64,000 nucleotides of DNA from Spinacia oleracea (taxonomy: Eukaryota > Streptophyta > Magnoliopsida > Caryophyllales > Amaranthaceae), in assembly GCF_020520425.1 (NCBI RefSeq), contig NC_079491.1:6249143-6313142 (forward strand), written 5' to 3'. The position numbers were made by a program, and so were the translations under genes. Within the stretch, counting starts at the first letter, position 1, and each line of letters starts with the position of its first letter. A model generated the notes under the pieces. That model made no database searches. It was not told the origin of the DNA and saw only the letters and a program-made list of their open reading frames with translations. This document shows positions 8,358 through 61,612 of this stretch, piece by piece.

Positions 8358-9513
8358 TCTCAAAAAAAAAAAAAAAAAAAATCAAAAATGACTTTTTTTT
8401 TATAATAATAATTTTTATTCAGACCGACACCTTGCCTTATTCTTATGGAGGATTGGGTGTTTATTCAGCTGGTGATGTTCGGCATTATGCTTTTCTTGCA
8501 TCCCGTTTGCAGTCTTCTGGTTTGCAGGATTCGCTTCTTCATCTTTCAGGTGTTGATGGTCCGGGACCGGCCTTTGATGATGCTCTTGGTCTTTTCAATA
8601 GGACCGTGGAGACCGACCTTATGCGTAGCCCTAGTGAGATTGCTGCCCCCAGACTCATGAAGAAATTGGCAGACATATATTTCACGAAGGTTACTGCTGA
8701 TGCGGAATCCGCCTACTCCTTATCTTCACGTCTTGTTGCCCTATGGAAATCACAGCAGGGGGATCACTCCTCAGCTTGGTTGCGGGCAGTCCCCATCCCG
8801 GGGTTAGGCCAGACTATGAACGATAAGACTTATCGTTCGGTTCTTTGCTATCGGTTGGGTATTCCGTTGTTCTCTGATTCGACGCCGTGTTCTGCTTGCT
8901 CTCGGGTTTTCGACGGGGACATTTATGGGGATCATGCCGTGTCCTGTGCTGGGATTGTGGGTATCAAACATCGACATAATGTTGTTCGTGATACCCTTTT
9001 GGATATTTGCTATCGGTCGGGTATTTCTGCTCGCAAGGAGGTTGATGTTGGGCTGACTAGTGAGAGTGATGGAGCTCTTCGTCCTGCAGATATATTGCTT
9101 TACTCATGGGATGGCGGTCTAGATGCGTGTGTTGACTTGACTGGGTATTCCCCTATGACGCAACCTGGGTTGTCAGGCTTCATTCCGGGTCGGGTTGTGG
9201 CGGTTGCAGCGCAGCGGAAGCAGGATAAGTATGCGGCACGTTGTAGGGCTTTGGGTTACAATTTCTTTCCTTTTTCCTTCTCTTCTTTTGGGGAATTAGA
9301 GAAAGGGGCTGTTTCTTTGCTGAAGCGGGTCCAGACGTACTCCAGGGCTCAAGACATTGGGGCACGAGCAGCTGCCCACATTTTCAGCAGGATGGGGTTC
9401 GCCATAGCTAAAGGAGTGGGGGCCCAGATTGTATCTCGACTCCCCTCCAACTTCTTGTAGTTCACTTGATCTTTGTAGCTTGTTAAGCTTGTAACGTTTT
9501 GATGTTTTCCCAT

Positions 9514-24400: not shown

Positions 24401-25957
24401 CTCCTCTTCCTCTTCTGATTTCCCCTCCACTAAAAATGCTCTTTGCCTGCCTTCCTTTCATTCCTTTTTGTCATCAATTTTTATGATTTCCTTCTTCTCT
24501 GCAAATCTCTCTCCATTTTCCTTCAAATTAGGGCTTTTCTTTTTCCTTTTTTGTAAAAAAATCATAAATTTGAGTACTAGTTAACTCCAACAGAAACAGT
24601 TGTTCCTTAACATCAGGGAACAAGAACTACTCTTGTTTAAAGAAAAAAGGTACAGTCTTTTTTATGTTAATTTTAATTTTCCTTTTCTTTCTTTCATTTT
24701 TTTCCTGATCAGCTTAAATAAGTTCATCTGTGTGAATGTTTTTATTTAGGTAAAGTGTGAGAAACAAGCTATGCAAGTTATAACCTATTGCTACTGTCTT
24801 AGCTTCTTCAAGTCTGATCTATAATTCTATATAGCTTAGGTTATACAACACAGAAAGTTATAACCTATAGTTTTGAATTTTGTGGAATTTTATAATATAG
24901 TTCACTAGTAGTATATATAGTAGTATCTTCTTAGATTAGCTTATTTAAGGAGGTGAAAAAATTGGAAATAAATGTTGGATAAATAGGTGAAAAAGAGTCC
25001 AGATCCCATGAATCAGAAGAATTACTGTTGTTAGTCTATTATAGCTGCAACCTGCTCTTGATCATCATCATTATCATGGTCTTTGTGTCTTTTATGATTT
25101 TTTCACATGGAGACTGAGACTGAGACTGAGAGTGAAAGTGAGAGAGAAACTTTGAAGGGAATTTTTATTTTGGAAATTTTGCTAAAAAATAATTTCCCAA
25201 AAATACACATCATAAGTTTTTTTTTTATATGAAATACACATCATAACTCATAAGGTTGGTAGAGTAAAAAAAACTTCAAAATATCTGGTGGGAAAATCAA
25301 AGCTTTTCTTGAATGATTTTTTTTTTTTAAAAAAAAAGTTAATTACAAGAAAGGGCTTTGGATGATTTGGTTATGTTGGTGAATTGGGATTTGACATGTG
25401 TTTAATTTCAGTTCTTCAACAATTTCAGATCAACAAAAATAAGAAATAAATTTCTGATCAACTAAAAAGTTTCAGCAACTTCTGATTTTTTTTTTTTTTT
25501 TTTTTTTTTTTTACCAATTTCAGATTTCTTTCAATAAATTTGTGGGTTTTTCTTTTTGTGTGTTTTTAAGGTTAAAATCAAATGGGGGATTTATTTTTAT
25601 TGCAAATCTAATTCCACCAAGCAGTTTAAATTTATCACTTTGTTATAAATCTAGCTAAAATGATACTGGGTATAAAAGATCAAATTAAAAGTAAGACACG
25701 AATTAAATCAAACTTAATAGTATTAGGTGATCATCCTCAATTTATAATGTACTTCTATGAAAAAAGTTAAATTAAATTAAATTAAATTAAAGTATGTAAC
25801 ACTCTGAATTATAAATTCCCTAGCAAACCTAATTTTGTTCTTGAATCCTGCCTAACTCGATCATCTTTGATAACATATACTCGTATCTCTTTAATGGCTT
25901 TCCTTCATTTCTTCTATCATATTATTGTACACAGAAGATCAAAACTCCACTGCAAAA
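24401..25957 (+). promoter_or_regulatory. LOB leader with probable 5'UTR intron
   Basis: CT-rich DNA (24401-24560) is followed by a donor-like AAAAAG|GTACAG at 24649/24650 and an acceptor-like TACACAG ending at 25934, 23 bases before the LOB start codon. This fits a long intron inside the 5'UTR, an arrangement known in some LBD genes. The intron holds long T-runs (25483-25512) and no inserted gene. Inferred from splice signals only. Confidence 0.45.
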
Positions 25958-26548
25958 ATGGCATCATCATCATCATCATCAAGCTCATACAACTCACCAT
26001 GCGCAGCCTGCAAATTCCTTCGAAGAAAATGCATGCCAGGTTGCATTTTCGCACCTTATTTCCCACCCGAAGAACCCCAAAAATTCGCCAACGTTCACAA
26101 AATCTTCGGCGCCAGCAACGTCACCAAACTCCTCAACGAACTCCTCCCTCACCAGAGGGAAGACGCCGTCAACTCCTTAGCTTACGAGGCGGAGGCAAGA
26201 GTCAGGGACCCAGTTTACGGCTGCGTAGGGGCAATTTCGTACTTACAACGCCAAGTTCAAAAGCTTCAAAAGGAGCTTGATGCGGCCAACGCCGATTTGC
26301 TTCGCTACGCTTGCCATGAAATCAATTCAACCACCGTAGCAATGCAGGGGATCGGGGTGGTCCCTCCACCACCGCCGCCTCCGCCGCCTAGGCCGCCACA
26401 CGAACAGTTTGGAAACTATTATCATCAGCCGTCGTCGTCTGATATTATGTTGCAACCGTCGTACCCGATTATTCCATGGAATGTCGACATGAATGTTGTT
26501 AATCAAAGAGGAGGAGGTGATAATAATAATAATCAAGGTAACATGTGA
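25958..26548 (+). CDS. LOB: LOB domain transcription factor, LATERAL ORGAN BOUNDARIES orthologue
   Basis: A 196-residue protein in one coding exon. LOB-domain proteins are plant-specific DNA-binding factors; LOB itself is expressed at organ boundaries and limits brassinosteroid response there (Arabidopsis). The domain is complete: zinc-finger-like C-x2-C-x6-C-x3-C at Cys15, 18, 25 and 29, then the GAS block containing FGASNVTKLL, then a leucine-zipper-like L-x6-L-x3-L-x6-L in YLQRQVQKLQKELDAANADL, which marks class I. The N-terminus (polySer then YNSPCAACKFLRRKC) and the C-terminal QGNM resemble Arabidopsis LOB more than other LBDs as I recall them. The variable region has a nine-proline run and an Asn-rich tail. 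An in-frame extension upstream lacks a better ATG and crosses the probable intron acceptor, so 25958 is the likely start. Confidence 0.92.
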   Translation: MASSSSSSSSYNSPCAACKFLRRKCMPGCIFAPYFPPEEPQKFANVHKIFGASNVTKLLNELLPHQREDAVNSLAYEAEARVRDPVYGCVGAISYLQRQVQKLQKELDAANADLLRYACHEINSTTVAMQGIGVVPPPPPPPPPRPPHEQFGNYYHQPSSSDIMLQPSYPIIPWNVDMNVVNQRGGGDNNNNQGNM

Positions 26549-41648: not shown

Positions 41649-41709
41649 AACACCACACCTCATTAAATTCATAACTTCTCTATCATTATTCTCTTATCTT
41701 ATCAAAAAA

Positions 41710-42237
41710 ATGGCCGGTCAATCTTATTCTTCCCGCCAAGACACTTACCTAAAAAACCAAGAAAGAGGTAGTCAAGATCTTCAACAAAAGGGCCAAGAAG
41801 CTATCCAAAACTTCAAACATTTCCTTCATCGAAAAACCCCTTCATCTTCTAACTTAGTTGCATTTCTCACTGTTTTCCCACTTGGGGCCTTCCTTTTGGG
41901 CCTATCCGTACTCTCTTTTATCGGGTCGGTTATCGGGTTAGCGGTAACCACACCGTTGTTTATCCTCTTTAGCCCGGTTATCATTCCGGCTATTTTGACT
42001 ATCGGGCTTGCTAATTTGGGCTTTTTGGCCTCCGGGGCTTTTGGGATAACGGCACTATCCGCTTTTTCGTGGATCATTAACTTCTTTAGGGGGTTTCGGG
42101 TTGGTGGAACGGGTACGGATATGGAGCATGTTTCTCGGTGGGCTTATGAGAAGGCTGGAGATATGGGCCAGAGAGTGAAAGAAATGGGTCAGGAAATTAC
42201 TGGTAAAGCCCGTGAGTCCGTGAGGAATGATGGTTAA
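41710..42237 (+). CDS. Oleosin
   Basis: A 175-residue, intronless oleosin, the structural protein that coats seed oil bodies and stops them fusing. Residues 1-45 are hydrophilic and Gln-rich. Residues about 48-122 form the long hydrophobic hairpin with the diagnostic proline knot P-x5-S-P-x3-P (Pro82, Ser88, Pro89, Pro93). The C-terminal part, from about residue 137, is amphipathic. The frame is open upstream to 41581, but ATG 41710 in AAAAAAATGGCC starts a protein with the usual oleosin N-terminus (MAGQ) and is preferred. Length is typical of the higher-molecular-weight seed class. No intron or damage is seen. RY and ABRE motifs upstream agree with seed-maturation expression. Confidence 0.93.
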   Translation: MAGQSYSSRQDTYLKNQERGSQDLQQKGQEAIQNFKHFLHRKTPSSSNLVAFLTVFPLGAFLLGLSVLSFIGSVIGLAVTTPLFILFSPVIIPAILTIGLANLGFLASGAFGITALSAFSWIINFFRGFRVGGTGTDMEHVSRWAYEKAGDMGQRVKEMGQEITGKARESVRNDG

Positions 42238-43840: not shown

Positions 43841-44080
43841 TTATAGATAAGCTTGTTCTAATTATTATTCTTATTAGTCATAGTTCCTACAATTAATTTC
43901 AAATGTATAAGAATGTACTCAAAGAATGTACATTCATAGGTGAAAAAGAACATGGTATTGTAATAAAAGAAAGTGAGATGCATGCTACTAATTATAATAT
44001 ATATCCGTCATGTAAACTGCATTTGTACTCCATACCACATGCATGCATCATCTAACAAAACCCCCCGTCAAAAAAAACTC

Positions 44081-44088
44081 TATAAATA
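44081..44088 (+). promoter_or_regulatory. TATA box of knottin-like gene
   Basis: CTC followed by TATAAATA, 74 bases before the start codon, inside a promoter segment (44030-44110) that is duplicated at 47080-47150. The duplicated part includes CATGCATCATCTAACAAAAC. Confidence 0.7.
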
Positions 44089-44161
44089 CCCTAATTCATA
44101 ACCACATTTCATCAGAAAAAATAAAAAGGAATCAGAAAGAAAGAAAAAGGAGTGGATCAAA

Positions 44162-44425
44162 ATGATGAAGATGAAGAGTTTTGTGATGGTTATGGTGATG
44201 ATGAGCTTGATGGTGGCTACATCAATCGCAGAAAATACTCCATGCCAGAGAAATAGCCAGTGTCCCCCTGGAGAGTGTTGTGGGTACGATGGTTTATGTC
44301 TCTCTGTCAGCTTTGACGGATGCCGCCGCGGTGGTGTCGAGGAGGTTGAAGCCCACCGATATACCGGTGTTCCTAAAACGCGCAAGTTCCGTGCTGCTAC
44401 GGTTGTTAGAACGGGTGCCCCTTGA
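44162..44425 (+). CDS. Secreted cysteine-rich peptide, knottin-like pattern
   Basis: An 87-residue protein with an N-terminal hydrophobic Met/Val-rich signal peptide (about residues 1-24, likely cleavage before the Glu-Asn of the mature part). It is followed by six cysteines spaced C-x5-C-x4-CC-x5-C-x7-C. That order (C, C, CC, C, C) is the inhibitor-cystine-knot pattern found in several plant antimicrobial peptides, so an extracellular defence role is possible but is inference. The C-terminal 35 residues are basic, cysteine-free and may be a propeptide. No close family was recognised. It has its own TATA box, and the leader and start region are duplicated at 47041-47246. An overlapping frame (44280-44471) is also open but lacks such features. 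No intron was seen. Confidence 0.65.
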   Translation: MMKMKSFVMVMVMMSLMVATSIAENTPCQRNSQCPPGECCGYDGLCLSVSFDGCRRGGVEEVEAHRYTGVPKTRKFRAATVVRTGAP

Positions 44426-45060
44426 TCAGTGCATGGCGGAGTCAAGGTCTTTGATCGAGTCGGAATGTTGACATGTTATAAAAATAATTATCTAATAATC
44501 TGTATTAATTTACTTTTTCTAATAAATACAGCCGCTCACTTCAACCACGTAGATTGTGCTTGTGTCTTAATTACTACGGAGTACTACGTAACGTAGTTGC
44601 TTAAATTTGTAAGGGGTGTTTTAAATTAAAGTTATTATCAAACGAATGAATTGCATCTATTCATAATTCATGTGCCTTCATGTGCCTACACGTGTACTAC
44701 GTACCTTATAATGTTATACACTGTATGTTACTATGTTAGTATCAATATAATTGGATTATTGGATTTACGCCAAAGAAATTAAGTACGAAGTACTTCGTAT
44801 GAAATAATTTGAAAAGATGATATTTTCACAAATTTCCTACATGCTTCCCTCCTTTGTCTTTCTTTGTTTATGTCATAGGTTGGTTAGTTAGTTAGTGGAT
44901 GATCATTACTCTATACTGCACCACTACACATTAATTCTGTTAAATTTATTACAGAGAAAATACACAAGCTGGCTTGGAATCTACGATTAGTACTACTTCT
45001 GTTTCTAATTGATATTAACAAATTGACTTTTGTCATTATTTACGACTTTGATAATATTCA

Positions 45061-45920
45061 CCTGATCCACCCGGTTCACTCGAGTGTGATGGATGGATCA
45101 AATGCGGGTGATGAGTAAAGCAGGTGACGGATGGACTGGGTGGAACGGATGGATACGGGTAGACCTGGCAAACGAGTCGTTTAATTAGATCGGTTTCGGA
45201 TCGGGTTCATTCCGGTTGGGTCATTTCTGGTTATTCTTCTTTCGGGTCGGTTTCGGATATGGGTCGGGTCCATTCTGGTTTCGGGTAACTTCGTTTTTTT
45301 ATAATTAGGTCGGGTCTGGTTCGGGTCAATATCGGATCGGGTCATATCGGATCGGTTCATGTCGAATCAGGTTTTTCGGGTTCGATCGGATTTTTCGAGT
45401 TGGATCAGATTTTTTGTGTTTCGAGTTTTGATTACGTTTTTTGTCTTTTGATTTGGTGGTCACTATCATAATATTGTTAAACATTTTTCCTATAACACAA
45501 AAGAGTATAAATTAATAAAAAGAAAATAATAACAATAATAATAATAATAATATCAAAATAAAAGTAATAATAATATGAAAAGCTAAAAAAACTTGTATTT
45601 AAAACTATTTGGTAAATTTGAGATGCTCTTCGATCGGATCGGTTCGGGTTAATAAATTTTACAGTTATTTCTGGTTAGGGTTATTTTAGTTTCGGGTCAT
45701 TCGGGTATCGGGACATTTCAAGTCAAATCACTTTCGGGTCGATTTCGGTTTCGAGTCGATTCTATTTGATTTCGGATCAATTTCGTGTATCGGGTCATTT
45801 CGTTGTTTCGGATCAACTTCGTGTTACATATCGGATCAATCGGGTCGATTTTTAGGGTCCGGATCAGTTTTGCTAGATCTAGATACGGGTGATGCTCTAC
45901 CGATCCAAATCCCACCCATT
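45061..45920. repeat. Degenerate CGGGTC/GGATCGG-rich tract
   Basis: A long run of imperfect phrases such as TTCGGGTCGGTTTCGG and ATCGGATCGGGTCA on both sides of an AATAATA-rich core. It looks like the inverted-repeat class at 2659-3150 but longer and less orderly. Non-coding; it separates the knottin-like gene from peptide A. Confidence 0.5.
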
Positions 45921-46115
45921 TTCATTCTTATCCACATGCAGATGAGAGGGAAGCTTTATTGATCTCGGGTATAGTATAATTACGACCTAAAGGCTAGAGA
46001 GTTGTTCAAAGGGACTTGAGCCTATATTCTAACACCTAGCTAGCTGGATGTACGTAGTTGTCTTGGTCTACTACAACGTGAATGCAACTAACTATCTGAA
46101 TGTTAGTTAAACCAC

Positions 46116-46123
46116 TATAAATA
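46116..46123 (+). promoter_or_regulatory. TATA box of small peptide gene A
   Basis: TATAAATA 89 bases before the start codon. This promoter is not present upstream of paralogue B, where homology only begins about 35 bases before the ATG. Confidence 0.65.
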
Positions 46124-46211
46124 TGCTTCACCCAATTCTACATGCATTCTTCATCAATCCAACTAAACCACTAATTAAGAGTAAATTCCACTAAGAAAAA
46201 ACCCCATAAAA

Positions 46212-46472
46212 ATGAGTCAGGCGGCTCAGCTAATTACAAAGTGTGTAGTTTTCGTCACCTTGGCTATACTTGTCATGGCCTTTGCCGTCTCAGCTGCCCG
46301 ATCTCTAGCTGGCGAACCAGCGAAACTCCCCGGTGCATCCGATAAGGGAGGAACTCTAGATGGGCTAGTTACAGGTGGTGGTATAGAAATGAGAAGGCTT
46401 CTAACGGAGGTGAGCGTACGTAAAAAGGTTATCAAGGGCCATAGCCAATTTATTTTTAAAATAAAAGGTTAA
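46212..46472 (+). CDS. Small secreted peptide A, unknown family
   Basis: An 86-residue protein: hydrophobic signal peptide (about 1-28, cleavage expected after VSA), then a 39-residue segment starting ARSLAGEPAKLPGASDK and ending MRRLLTEV, then a 19-residue basic tail. It has no cysteine after the signal, so it is not a knottin or defensin. It could be a precursor of a short signalling peptide, but I recognise no known plant hormone motif. Paralogue B (47893-48141) shares the 39-residue segment with one change, whereas the tails match at only about 9 of 19 positions. The tail begins exactly at a donor-like GAG|GTGAGC, so the real transcript may splice there. The 3' flank is duplicated as well. 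Confidence 0.6.
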   Translation: MSQAAQLITKCVVFVTLAILVMAFAVSAARSLAGEPAKLPGASDKGGTLDGLVTGGGIEMRRLLTEVSVRKKVIKGHSQFIFKIKG

Positions 46473-46759
46473 GGTCATAACGTAAGTACGTACTATTAGA
46501 TGAATGTTGTAATTCTTTATAATAATATTTCAAAAAAAAAAAAATACTTACGACTTATCCTCGTGCGGAGAGACTTCTAAGTTTTTTCTTCTTACCTTTA
46601 TAAAAGAAAAAAATCAAAGTATGCATTCTCTAGTAAATAGTAATACTCCCTCCGTTTTATATTGCTTTTCTTGTTTGGAGAAACACATGAATATTAAGAA
46701 AAAAAACAAGAATGTGTAAGTTGCAATTGTTGTTGTATACTTGTAATGGGAAGGTAGTA

Positions 46760-47012
46760 CTTCTTCCGTTCCGAAATGTTGCACCGTGTTGACTTTACGC
46801 TTCCCAATATACATGACTTTGACTCGTTATCTCTCGAATTATGTATTAGTAAAATTATAAAAATTAATATTCAGAAATCACATATCGATTCGAATCTAAT
46901 AAAATCCTACATGATTACGTACTTTTTACGTATATTTTTCAAAAAATGATCAAAGACACAACATGAATAATGTAAATATCAACATAGTGCGATATTGGCG
47001 GAGCGGAGGAAA
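46760..47012. mobile_element. Stowaway MITE, absent from the paralogous site
   Basis: CTTCTTCCGTTCCGAAATG left end and GGAGCGGAGGAAA right end, flanked by TA at 46758-46759 and 47013-47014. The duplicated flank after peptide B has the uninterrupted sequence GTAGTATAATATTCCGCC (49011-49028), which is the empty site. Confidence 0.85.
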
Positions 47013-47040
47013 TATAACATTTCGCCATGTCAAAAAAAAA

Positions 47041-47246
47041 ATCCACCTTGTAAATTGTATGCGTACTTTGTAGCACGTGCATGCATCATCTAACAAAACC
47101 CCCCATCAAAAAAACTCTATAAATACCCTCATTCATGACCACCATTTAACACTAAAAATATCAATAGATGGAAAATACAAAAGATCGAGTCGGAAAGAGA
47201 AATGAGTGAAAATGATGTAGATGATCGAAGAGTTCTCTTACGAGGA
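47041..47246 (+). pseudogene. Truncated duplicate of the knottin-like gene
   Basis: Carries the same promoter segment as 44030-44110, including CATGCATCATCTAACAAAAC and the TATAAATA box (47118-47125), and then the start-codon region. Here the third codon is a stop (ATG ATG TAG at 47212-47220, against AAG in the intact gene), and homology is lost about 25 bases later. Neither the signal peptide nor the cysteine region is preserved, so no product is expected. Confidence 0.75.
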
Positions 47247-47343
47247 TCCGAGTAATATATCAACTATCCACAAGGATCACCTCCAACACAATTAACCAAA
47301 ATAATGGTTTGTAGATTTTCTAACGCGAATCTGTTATAAAAGA

Positions 47344-47572
47344 GGACCATCATTGATGGAAAATTCCGTCGTTAGCCCATCATAAAAGGCATTTGCGACT
47401 GATGTTCCCGTCTATATTTGGTGGTTAACTCCGTCGCAAAAGACATTTGCGATTGGTGTTCCCGTCTATATTTGGTACGGTGGTTAACTCCGTTGCAAAA
47501 GACTTTTGCAACGGGATTTTTGACCCGTCATTATTGGTTTGTCATTAAAGATCAATTAAATTTCTAGTAGTG
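47344..47572. mobile_element. CACTA-type MITE copy 3, rearranged
   Basis: Shares AATTCCGTCGTTA, GCATTTGCGAC and CCGTCGCAAAAG phrases with copies 1 and 2 and ends TAGTAGTG at 47572, but the CACTA start is missing. A segment of about 55 bases (TTTGCGA-TGTTCCCGTCTATATTTGGT) is tandemly doubled at 47390-47500. It lies between the broken knottin copy and peptide B. Confidence 0.65.
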
Positions 47573-47892
47573 AACTCCAATATACCGCAAATAATCCACC
47601 AAACAAACAACTTAGCAATCAACCAATAATCAAATGCGGAATAACATAATGCTATCAACACACACGAATTATACGTGGAAAAGCCTTCAATGTGAAGAAT
47701 AAAAACCACGGGACTTGTGAGAAGTCCACCCTTGTCACCTTCTCTTATTATGATAAAATTTAGGGAAAAATAGCTCAAATCGTTCATACAAAGGTTCACA
47801 ACCCACCAACAGTTCCATACATAAGAGATCTACAATTGAGAGATAAAATATGAGATCTACAACTAAATCCCACTAAGAAAAAAGCCCTAAAA

Positions 47893-48141
47893 ATGAGTCA
47901 GTTAACAAAGTGTGTGGTTTTCATCACCTTGGCTATGCTTGTCATGGCCTTTGTCGTCTCGGCTGCCCGATCTCTAGCTGGCGAACCAGCGAAACTCCCC
48001 GGTGCATCCGATAAGAGAGGAACTCTAGATGGGCTAGTTACAGGTGGCGGTATAGAAATGAGAAGGCTTCTGACGGAGGTGCGCGTGCGTACAGTTTTTA
48101 TCAGGGGCCATAGCCAAATTCTTTTTATTGTGAAAGATTAG
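47893..48141 (+). CDS. Small secreted peptide B, paralogue of A
   Basis: An 82-residue protein with the same plan as 46212-46472: signal peptide (shorter by four residues near the N-terminus), the near-invariant segment ending MRRLLTEV, and a diverged tail. In B the donor-like site after LLTE reads GTGCGC, weaker than in A. Homology to A upstream of the ATG covers only the leader (CCCACTAAGAAAAAAGCCC), so B sits behind different DNA, including a CACTA MITE 320 bases upstream, and may have lost its promoter. The frame is intact. Function unknown. Confidence 0.5.
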   Translation: MSQLTKCVVFITLAMLVMAFVVSAARSLAGEPAKLPGASDKRGTLDGLVTGGGIEMRRLLTEVRVRTVFIRGHSQILFIVKD

Positions 48142-48156
48142 GTTAATAACGTATTA

Positions 48157-48835
48157 CTACCTCCGTTTCTAAATGATCTTTAACCTTACTATTTGTACGG
48201 TAATAAAGCGAAATTTGATGAATATATGATGGAGAGGGGTACCAAATGAGAAAATGAGTGACTATAAATTGTCCAACAATGTACGTAAGTGGATGAAAAT
48301 TAATAATCCATCCGTCTCTTTTTGTTCTTTACGTTTTTCTTTTTGGGTGTCCCAAAATGTTTTTTACATTTCTTTTTATATTATCTCATAAATGCTTTAA
48401 TATTCTATCAAAATTTGTGTCCAATGATTATTTTAACCAATTGAGTTAATTGGGTCATTTAATGTCTCACACTTTTCCATTGAGACATTAATTTTTTCTC
48501 ATTTTCCCAATATCAGAATTTTGATAAAAAATGTAATTTGCCTTGCTTAAATAAAAAAGACAGTAATCTCAATGCACATTAATTAATCGTTAAAACGCGT
48601 GCAAAACACCAACCGTAAAGAACAAAAAGAGACGGAGGCAGTGTTAAAGTATTATGGTGGGTAAGTTATGATGAACTCTCGTAATACAATATTCCAAGTT
48701 GTATAGTTATAGTGGGCCAAATGAATATATAAATGTAAAATTAGCATATCAAAAATGAAATAAAGTAGAGTGTAAAAACTTTCAAGATCAAGCAGTAAAA
48801 CGAAAAGTGTAAAGAATTTTCAGGAACGAAGTTAG
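48157..48835. mobile_element. Stowaway MITE with a second element inside
   Basis: Outer ends CTACCTCCGTTTCTAAATGA and complementary GAACGAAGTTAG, with TA at 48155-48156 and 48836-48837. Inside, at about 48308-48641, lies another inverted-repeat copy (CATCCGTCTCTTTTTGTTC and its complement). The equivalent position after peptide A (about 46487) lacks both. Confidence 0.75.
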
Positions 48836-49040
48836 TATCAGAATTTTGTAATTCTTTGTAATATTTCAAAAAATCAAAGCATGCATTCTCTAGTAATACT
48901 CCCTCCGCTTTATATTGATTTTCATGTTCAGAGAAAAACATGAACATTAAGAAAAAAAAAAAAAGTGTAAATTGCAATCGTTGTGTACTTCAGTACTTAT
49001 ATTGGGAATGTAGTATAATATTCCGCCATGTAAAAAAAAA

Positions 49041-57598: not shown

Positions 57599-61612
<4,014 letters not shown>

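Follow-up and report, generated by a model that had tools for sequence, protein, structure and literature searches.

The 64-kb stretch of spinach (Spinacia oleracea) DNA analysed here, called the window throughout, contains a tandem duplication in which two unrelated genes were copied together: a gene for a divergent 6C (six-cysteine) hevein-like peptide (HLP) and a gene for a small secreted peptide. The two-gene tandem duplication is real. As an earlier note on this DNA had described, the order of promoter, gene, peptide and flank recurs at 44.0-49.04 kb. Self-alignment gives three collinear pairs of blocks with 82%, 86% and 80% identity. The fuller reading, to which we assign a probability of roughly 85%, is that the neighbouring HLP and peptide genes were duplicated in tandem about 10 million years (Myr) ago, and that both copies were afterwards altered by insertions and by loss of sequence. 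The doubling would presumably have occurred by unequal crossing-over. In copy 2, the body of the HLP gene and the promoter of the peptide gene have been replaced by unrelated, partly transposon-derived DNA; the open reading frame (ORF) of the peptide survived. The interpretation of the earlier note as a whole is partly supported.

Three collinear blocks define the duplicated unit

The region 43.5-49.6 kb was compared with the whole window by self-BLAST; in the genome-wide searches the labels C1-C6 denote contigs, and the window is G000:C5:6249143-6313142. Three homologous block pairs were found, collinear and in equal orientation. Block A pairs 44003-44123 with 47041-47160 (82% identity, E 3e-27), and block B pairs 46182-46484 with 47864-48153 (86%, E 2e-99). 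Block C consists of two pieces, 46502-46537 / 48841-48873 (86%) and 46608-46759 / 48868-49015 (80%), with a best E of 7e-35 over the block. The limits of the unit lie at ~43996-44003 (5′ edge of copy 1) and ~47034-47041 (junction). The unit, its flanks and its copy-specific insertions are as follows.

43996..47040 (5′ limit ~43996-44003), + strand: tandem unit, copy 1 (self-alignment)
47041..49036, + strand: tandem unit, copy 2, directly behind copy 1 (self-alignment)
46502..46757, + strand: 3′ flank, copy 1 (self-BLAST)
48841..49036, + strand: 3′ flank, copy 2 (self-BLAST, empty-site alignment)
46758..47012, + strand: inverted-repeat element, ~255 bp, resembling a miniature inverted-repeat transposable element, copy 1 only (empty site in copy 2)
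48160..48831, unstranded: insertion of ~670 bp with a nested inverted-repeat element inside, copy 2 only (empty site in copy 1)

The earlier note gave the third pair as 46500-47046 and 48835-49040. This match is interrupted, as each copy has its own insertion. With ~46758-47012 taken out of copy 1, the alignment extends as far as the unit does in copy 2; with ~48160-48831 taken out of copy 2, the alignment with copy 1 likewise continues. The element in copy 1 is bounded by imperfect terminal inverted repeats. In copy 2, the arms of the nested element lie at 48300-48345 and 48602-48647.

A different explanation would be that dispersed repeats merely fell in equal order and that no tandem duplication took place. 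Some of the DNA is indeed repetitive: 46755-47021, 47313-47574 and 48155-48198 match elsewhere in the window, and block C is partly repeat-like, with 59 nt of it (46644-46702) 75% identical to a region on C2. However, the blocks are collinear and without a third copy in the window (E <= 1e-3), and each copy-specific insertion is matched by an empty site in its counterpart. The genome-wide search, made with block B, gave four further matches among the best candidates scored, all weaker. Dispersal thus accounts in part for the DNA between the gene blocks and, on searches of the window with all three blocks and of the genome with block B, fails for the blocks themselves; we consider it highly improbable as an explanation of the whole.

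Pooled noncoding aligned sites differ at 45/352 positions (12.8%; Jukes-Cantor distance 0.14). At a rate of 6.5-7e-9 substitutions per site per year, this divergence dates the duplication to roughly 10-11 Myr ago. As the copies share 80-86% identity, they are presumably not an artefact of collapsed haplotypes. The duplication itself and the later insertions and losses in copy 2 are ordinary genome evolution.

The cysteine-rich gene is assigned to the 6C-HLP family through its paralogs

The surviving cysteine-rich gene of copy 1 and its TATA box are located as follows.

44162..44425, + strand: divergent 6C-HLP precursor, 87 aa (ORF, paralog alignment)
44081..44087, + strand: HLP TATA box, CTATAAA at equal position in 6/7 aligned paralogs (DNA alignment)

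Alignment divides the precursor into a signal peptide (~1-23), a six-cysteine mature region (~24-55) and a C-terminal tail (~56-87); the signal peptide was recognised by its hydrophobic stretch and by alignment with 19 paralogs, with no signal-peptide predictor. This is the layout of type IIa HLP precursors, which PMC5743680 describes as signal peptide, mature peptide and short C-terminal domain. The tail of ~32 aa compares with an average of 31 aa for the C-terminal domain of 6C-HLPs, as stated in PMC5478723. The cysteine spacing C-X5-C-X4-CC-X5-C-X7-C contains the motif CXnCXnCCXnCXnC by which passages of PMC5743680 and PMC8512870 define the 6C-HLPs.

A genome protein search with the whole precursor gave 23 matches at E <= 10, one of them the window gene itself. 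Twenty-one paralogs matched at E <= 1.4e-4 (best E 2.6e-13), and one weak match (E 0.1) lies at C1 11.65 Mb. The 21 paralogs lie at C1 ~105.4-105.6 Mb, C2 ~70.4-71.4 Mb and C3 ~120.4-120.8 Mb, with one on C6. The 19 of 22 paralogs with loci were inspected by eye: the signal peptide and the six-cysteine frame are present in all 19 and a similar C-terminal tail in 18, L034 being truncated. The TATA stretch of the HLP promoter is also common to the window gene and paralogs. All four paralogs tested passed the gathering score of Chitin_bind_1, and the mature region of paralog L024 is identical by eye at 26/30 residues to beet IWF4 as given in Table 1 of PMC8512870. Because homologous paralogs carry the chitin-binding domain and share the precursor layout, we place the window gene in the 6C-HLP family. 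The earlier note could not match the cluster to a described family, which stands for the peptide gene and no longer for the cysteine-rich one.

Several results obtained with the window protein by itself weigh against this placement. No match to Chitin_bind_1 (PF00187) was found in Pfam at E <= 10, and the best Pfam match, Nodulin_late, stayed under the cut-off (E 0.0033). When scored with a profile built from the mature peptides of 11 published 6C-HLPs, the window protein was equalled or exceeded by 182 of 2000 shuffles that preserved the cysteines. In a tree of 14 distinct rows it formed the longest branch (0.99) and had no supported placement. Since the protein alone fails the profile and Pfam tests, its membership is argued from the genome's own paralogs.

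A single-sequence model of the HLP core (pLDDT, predicted local distance difference test, 76-83) gave a weak match to knottins, with the last cysteine in a low-confidence part. The model is no more than compatible with a knottin, and the cystine-knot connectivity I-IV, II-V, III-VI of 6C-HLPs is putative here. By analogy with its family, we read the surviving HLP as a secreted, disulfide-knotted precursor that would be cut to a peptide of ~32 residues; the architecture comes from the alignment and the processing from the family.

Squash trypsin inhibitors (EETI-II, MCoTI-II) were considered as another knottin family and rejected: their spacing, C-X6-C-X5-C-X3-C-X1-C-X5-C, differs from that of the window protein, and scores were weak. 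Neither was among the matches listed in the PDB sequence search with the window HLP.

Paralogs at C1:105.43-105.63 Mb form an array of 6C-HLP genes (L016-L023, L033, L034), 8 of the 10 inspected being near-identical. This array is probably the main HLP locus of the genome.

The residues for chitin binding have been lost

Chitin-binding HLPs carry SXXG in loop 3 and GXXXX-aromatic in loop 4, according to PMC8512870. The corresponding loops of the window HLP, GYDGL and LSVSFDG, depart from this rule: Gly replaces the loop-3 Ser, Leu replaces the loop-4 Gly, and no aromatic residue precedes the sixth cysteine. By eye, the loop-3 Ser, the first Gly of loop 4 and the Tyr before Cys6 are each present in 18/19 paralogs, L034 being the exception. 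DNA alignment with seven paralogs further showed that 6 nt have been inserted, in frame, into loop 4, which has seven residues, not six, and the sixth cysteine lies one codon ahead of the family position (by eye). As the chitin-binding residues are gone, the window HLP is predicted not to bind chitin. One count speaks against leaning on the first motif: strict SXXG is found by eye in only 5/19 paralogs, the Gly being Asn in 13 others and the Ser being Thr in L034, so the loss of SXXG by itself does not prove lost binding.

The chitin-binding 6C-HLPs of Amaranthaceae (beet IWF4, Ac-AMP1/2, Ar-AMP, altides, chenotides) have the same signal peptide, six-cysteine mature region and short C-terminal domain as the window gene, which differs in the altered loop-3 Ser, loop-4 Gly and aromatic residue and in its longer loop 4. 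The non-chitin-binding 6C-HLPs listed in PMC5743680 (bleogens, Mj-AMP1, PAFP-S, roseltides) have the same six-cysteine frame without the chitin-binding domain. In contrast to these, the window gene comes from a chitin-binding clan of its own genome and keeps the type of C-terminal tail of that clan.

If expressed, the window HLP would most likely act as a non-chitin-binding defence peptide, a reading with about even odds, the alternative being drift towards loss. On that alternative the gene is decaying, and relaxed constraint, not a new function, accounts for the changes in its mature region. Such decay is a serious possibility, short of even odds. It would fit the long branch, the shifted last cysteine and the inserted codons of loop 4, as well as an identity to the seven paralogs compared of only 7-11 of 30-32 residues in the mature region. 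It fits less well with an open frame, six retained cysteines and an intact TATA box, and the signal peptide (10-17 of 20-23 residues identical) is clearly better kept than the mature region, the tail (9-16 of 25-31) somewhat better.

The second gene probably encodes a small secreted peptide with a conserved core

The peptide genes of the two copies and the promoter of the first are located as follows.

46212..46472, + strand: small secreted peptide A, 86 aa (ORF list, A/B alignment, genome DNA search)
46066..46211, + strand: promoter and 5′ leader of peptide A, TATA at 46116 (homologous upstream of C2 and C3 paralogs)
47893..48141, + strand: small secreted peptide B, 82 aa, open frame without ancestral promoter (ORF list, alignment)

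Both peptides begin with a strongly hydrophobic N-terminal stretch, judged with no signal-peptide predictor. Peptide A matched no Pfam family at E <= 10 and no NCBIfam family; peptide B had no Pfam match above cut-off (sole match DUF6092, E 0.12) and none in NCBIfam. Both might still be plant signalling peptides of a kind that lacks a Pfam model.

Up to position 46409, the codons of A and B differ at 10/186 sites, compared with 45/352 noncoding sites (Fisher p 0.007). Gaps are likewise rarer in the ORF: the 249 aligned coding sites contain a single event, of 12 nt and in frame, and the 352 noncoding sites contain 13 (p 0.011). The C-terminal tail (46410-46472) differs at 16/63 sites, more than noncoding DNA (p 0.019; small numbers). 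The conserved part thus comprises codons ~1-66, and the last ~20 look unconstrained. A splice-donor-like GAG|GTGAGC lies at 46407-46415, where A/B conservation ends, and the peptide gene could conceivably have a spliced form.

A DNA search, in which more distant copies may be missed, found four other copies of the peptide gene, all inspected by eye. Of the two on C2, the one at 78.0694 Mb has an early frame end, and the frame of the one at 78.0898 Mb is broken between the start codon and the signal region. The C3 copy (5.6543 Mb) is split by ~500 nt, and the C4 copy (173.245 Mb) is open, its divergence setting in behind the signal region. Three copies, C2 78.0694, C3 and C4, have N-termini whose lengths fall between those of A and B. 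At C2:78073157-78073208, DNA homologous to the peptide A promoter is followed by no peptide ORF recognisable by eye, and this is perhaps another dead copy. Judged from these sequences, the second gene is a member of a small family of putative secreted peptides that has mostly decayed and lacks a Pfam match.

Other measures count against selection on the peptides. The Ka/Ks of A and B over the whole ORF is ~0.9 (0.106/0.118), divergence over the whole coding sequence (26/249) is not below noncoding divergence (p 0.44), and in a substitution-only neutral simulation both frames stayed open in 879/5000 runs, so that open frames are by themselves weak evidence. These ORFs might therefore be chance products of duplicated noncoding DNA and not genes, to which the high Ka/Ks, the divergent tail and the truncated, frame-broken, split or diverging state of the other copies would correspond. 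We regard this as unlikely, however: the signal and core region is kept between A and B, parts of it are recognisable in all four other copies, and the promoter region is shared with the C2 and C3 copies, with a TATA box in copy 1.

Core identity could also reflect gene conversion between the copies instead of selection. The core has few synonymous changes too (2 of ~34 sites) and includes a run of 54 identical bases (46293-46346). The synonymous count is nevertheless compatible with neutral change at the rate seen in noncoding sites (binomial p 0.17), and single differences flank the identical run on both sides, so that conversion, too, appears improbable. Peptide A is most likely the precursor of an apoplastic peptide with its working part at residues ~29-67, a proposal that has about one chance in two of being correct.

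Copy 2 has lost the cysteine-rich gene and the peptide promoter

In copy 2 the cysteine-rich gene is dead and the peptide ORF open, as had been proposed. The DNA from the relic to the peptide comprises three segments.

47041..47255, + strand: HLP relic of copy 2, with promoter, TATA at 47118, leader, few codons and an early stop (alignment, start by eye)
47313..47572, + strand: transposon fragment, CACTA-like right end (related copies at 35.3 and 38.4-38.6 kb)
47573..47863, unstranded: unassigned sequence at the place of copy 1's peptide promoter

The cysteine-coding region is gone from the relic, and from its end to 30 nt before the start of peptide B no BLAST match in copy 1 was found. The right end of the transposon fragment is presumably a CACTA terminus, judging by its motif. 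The promoter region of peptide A was not found before peptide B. As 46066-46211 is homologous upstream of the C2 and C3 paralogs, its absence there indicates that peptide B lost its ancestral promoter. Between the remaining HLP-type TATA and the start of peptide B downstream of it lie 775 nt, which contain 13 ATGs. With its promoter replaced and the nearest such TATA this distant, expression of peptide B is doubtful, and the gene would, somewhat more probably than otherwise, be silent or only weakly expressed.

The gene pair looks unconserved elsewhere in the genome

The earlier note had further suggested a peptide cluster and named conservation of the pair elsewhere as support; the paralogs give no such support, the partner being missing at all HLP and peptide paralog sites sampled. 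No peptide gene was found in six sampled 6-kb stretches around HLP paralogs (6 of 22 paralogs) or at 19 HLP loci with ~1.5 kb on each side, and no HLP was found in three peptide-paralog regions (40, 20 and 20 kb). Peptide DNA matches outside the window lie megabases from HLP matches or on other contigs. The HLP and the peptide thus look like neighbours copied together and not like a conserved cassette. For plant cysteine-rich peptide genes, PMC5557327 describes clustering that arises when genes for small secreted peptides are duplicated in tandem. The present case is alike in this respect and differs in that one unit carries two unrelated genes, one of which is dead in the second copy.

Significance and neighbouring genes

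These results connect what looked like an orphan knottin with a well-studied family of antifungal peptides, and they document a small secreted-peptide family unrecognised by Pfam. An HLP without chitin-binding residues also offers a natural test of whether the fold stays antifungal without chitin binding. A more far-reaching proposal, quite speculative as a joint claim, is that the HLP is a chitin-blind offshoot of the antifungal clan, its mature face rebuilt for another target with leader and tail kept, and that A and B represent an undescribed, lineage-specific secreted-peptide family with a conserved signal region, an RSLA...KLPGAS...LDGL core and a fast-changing tail, possibly acting in signalling or defence. 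On this proposal, peptide B might even have come to lie downstream of a promoter from a defence gene in copy 2.

Among the neighbouring genes, an oleosin gene at 41704-42237 (Pfam E 4.7e-33), ~2 kb upstream of the HLP gene, can serve as a synteny marker. A LOB-domain gene lies at 25925-26548 (Pfam E 1.7e-42). An Alliinase_C match, which we take to be aminotransferase-like, is present on the minus strand at 61201-61533 (Pfam E 7.3e-28). A 342-aa ORF at 8432-9460, with no Pfam match at E <= 0.001, looks on reading like a retroelement remnant.

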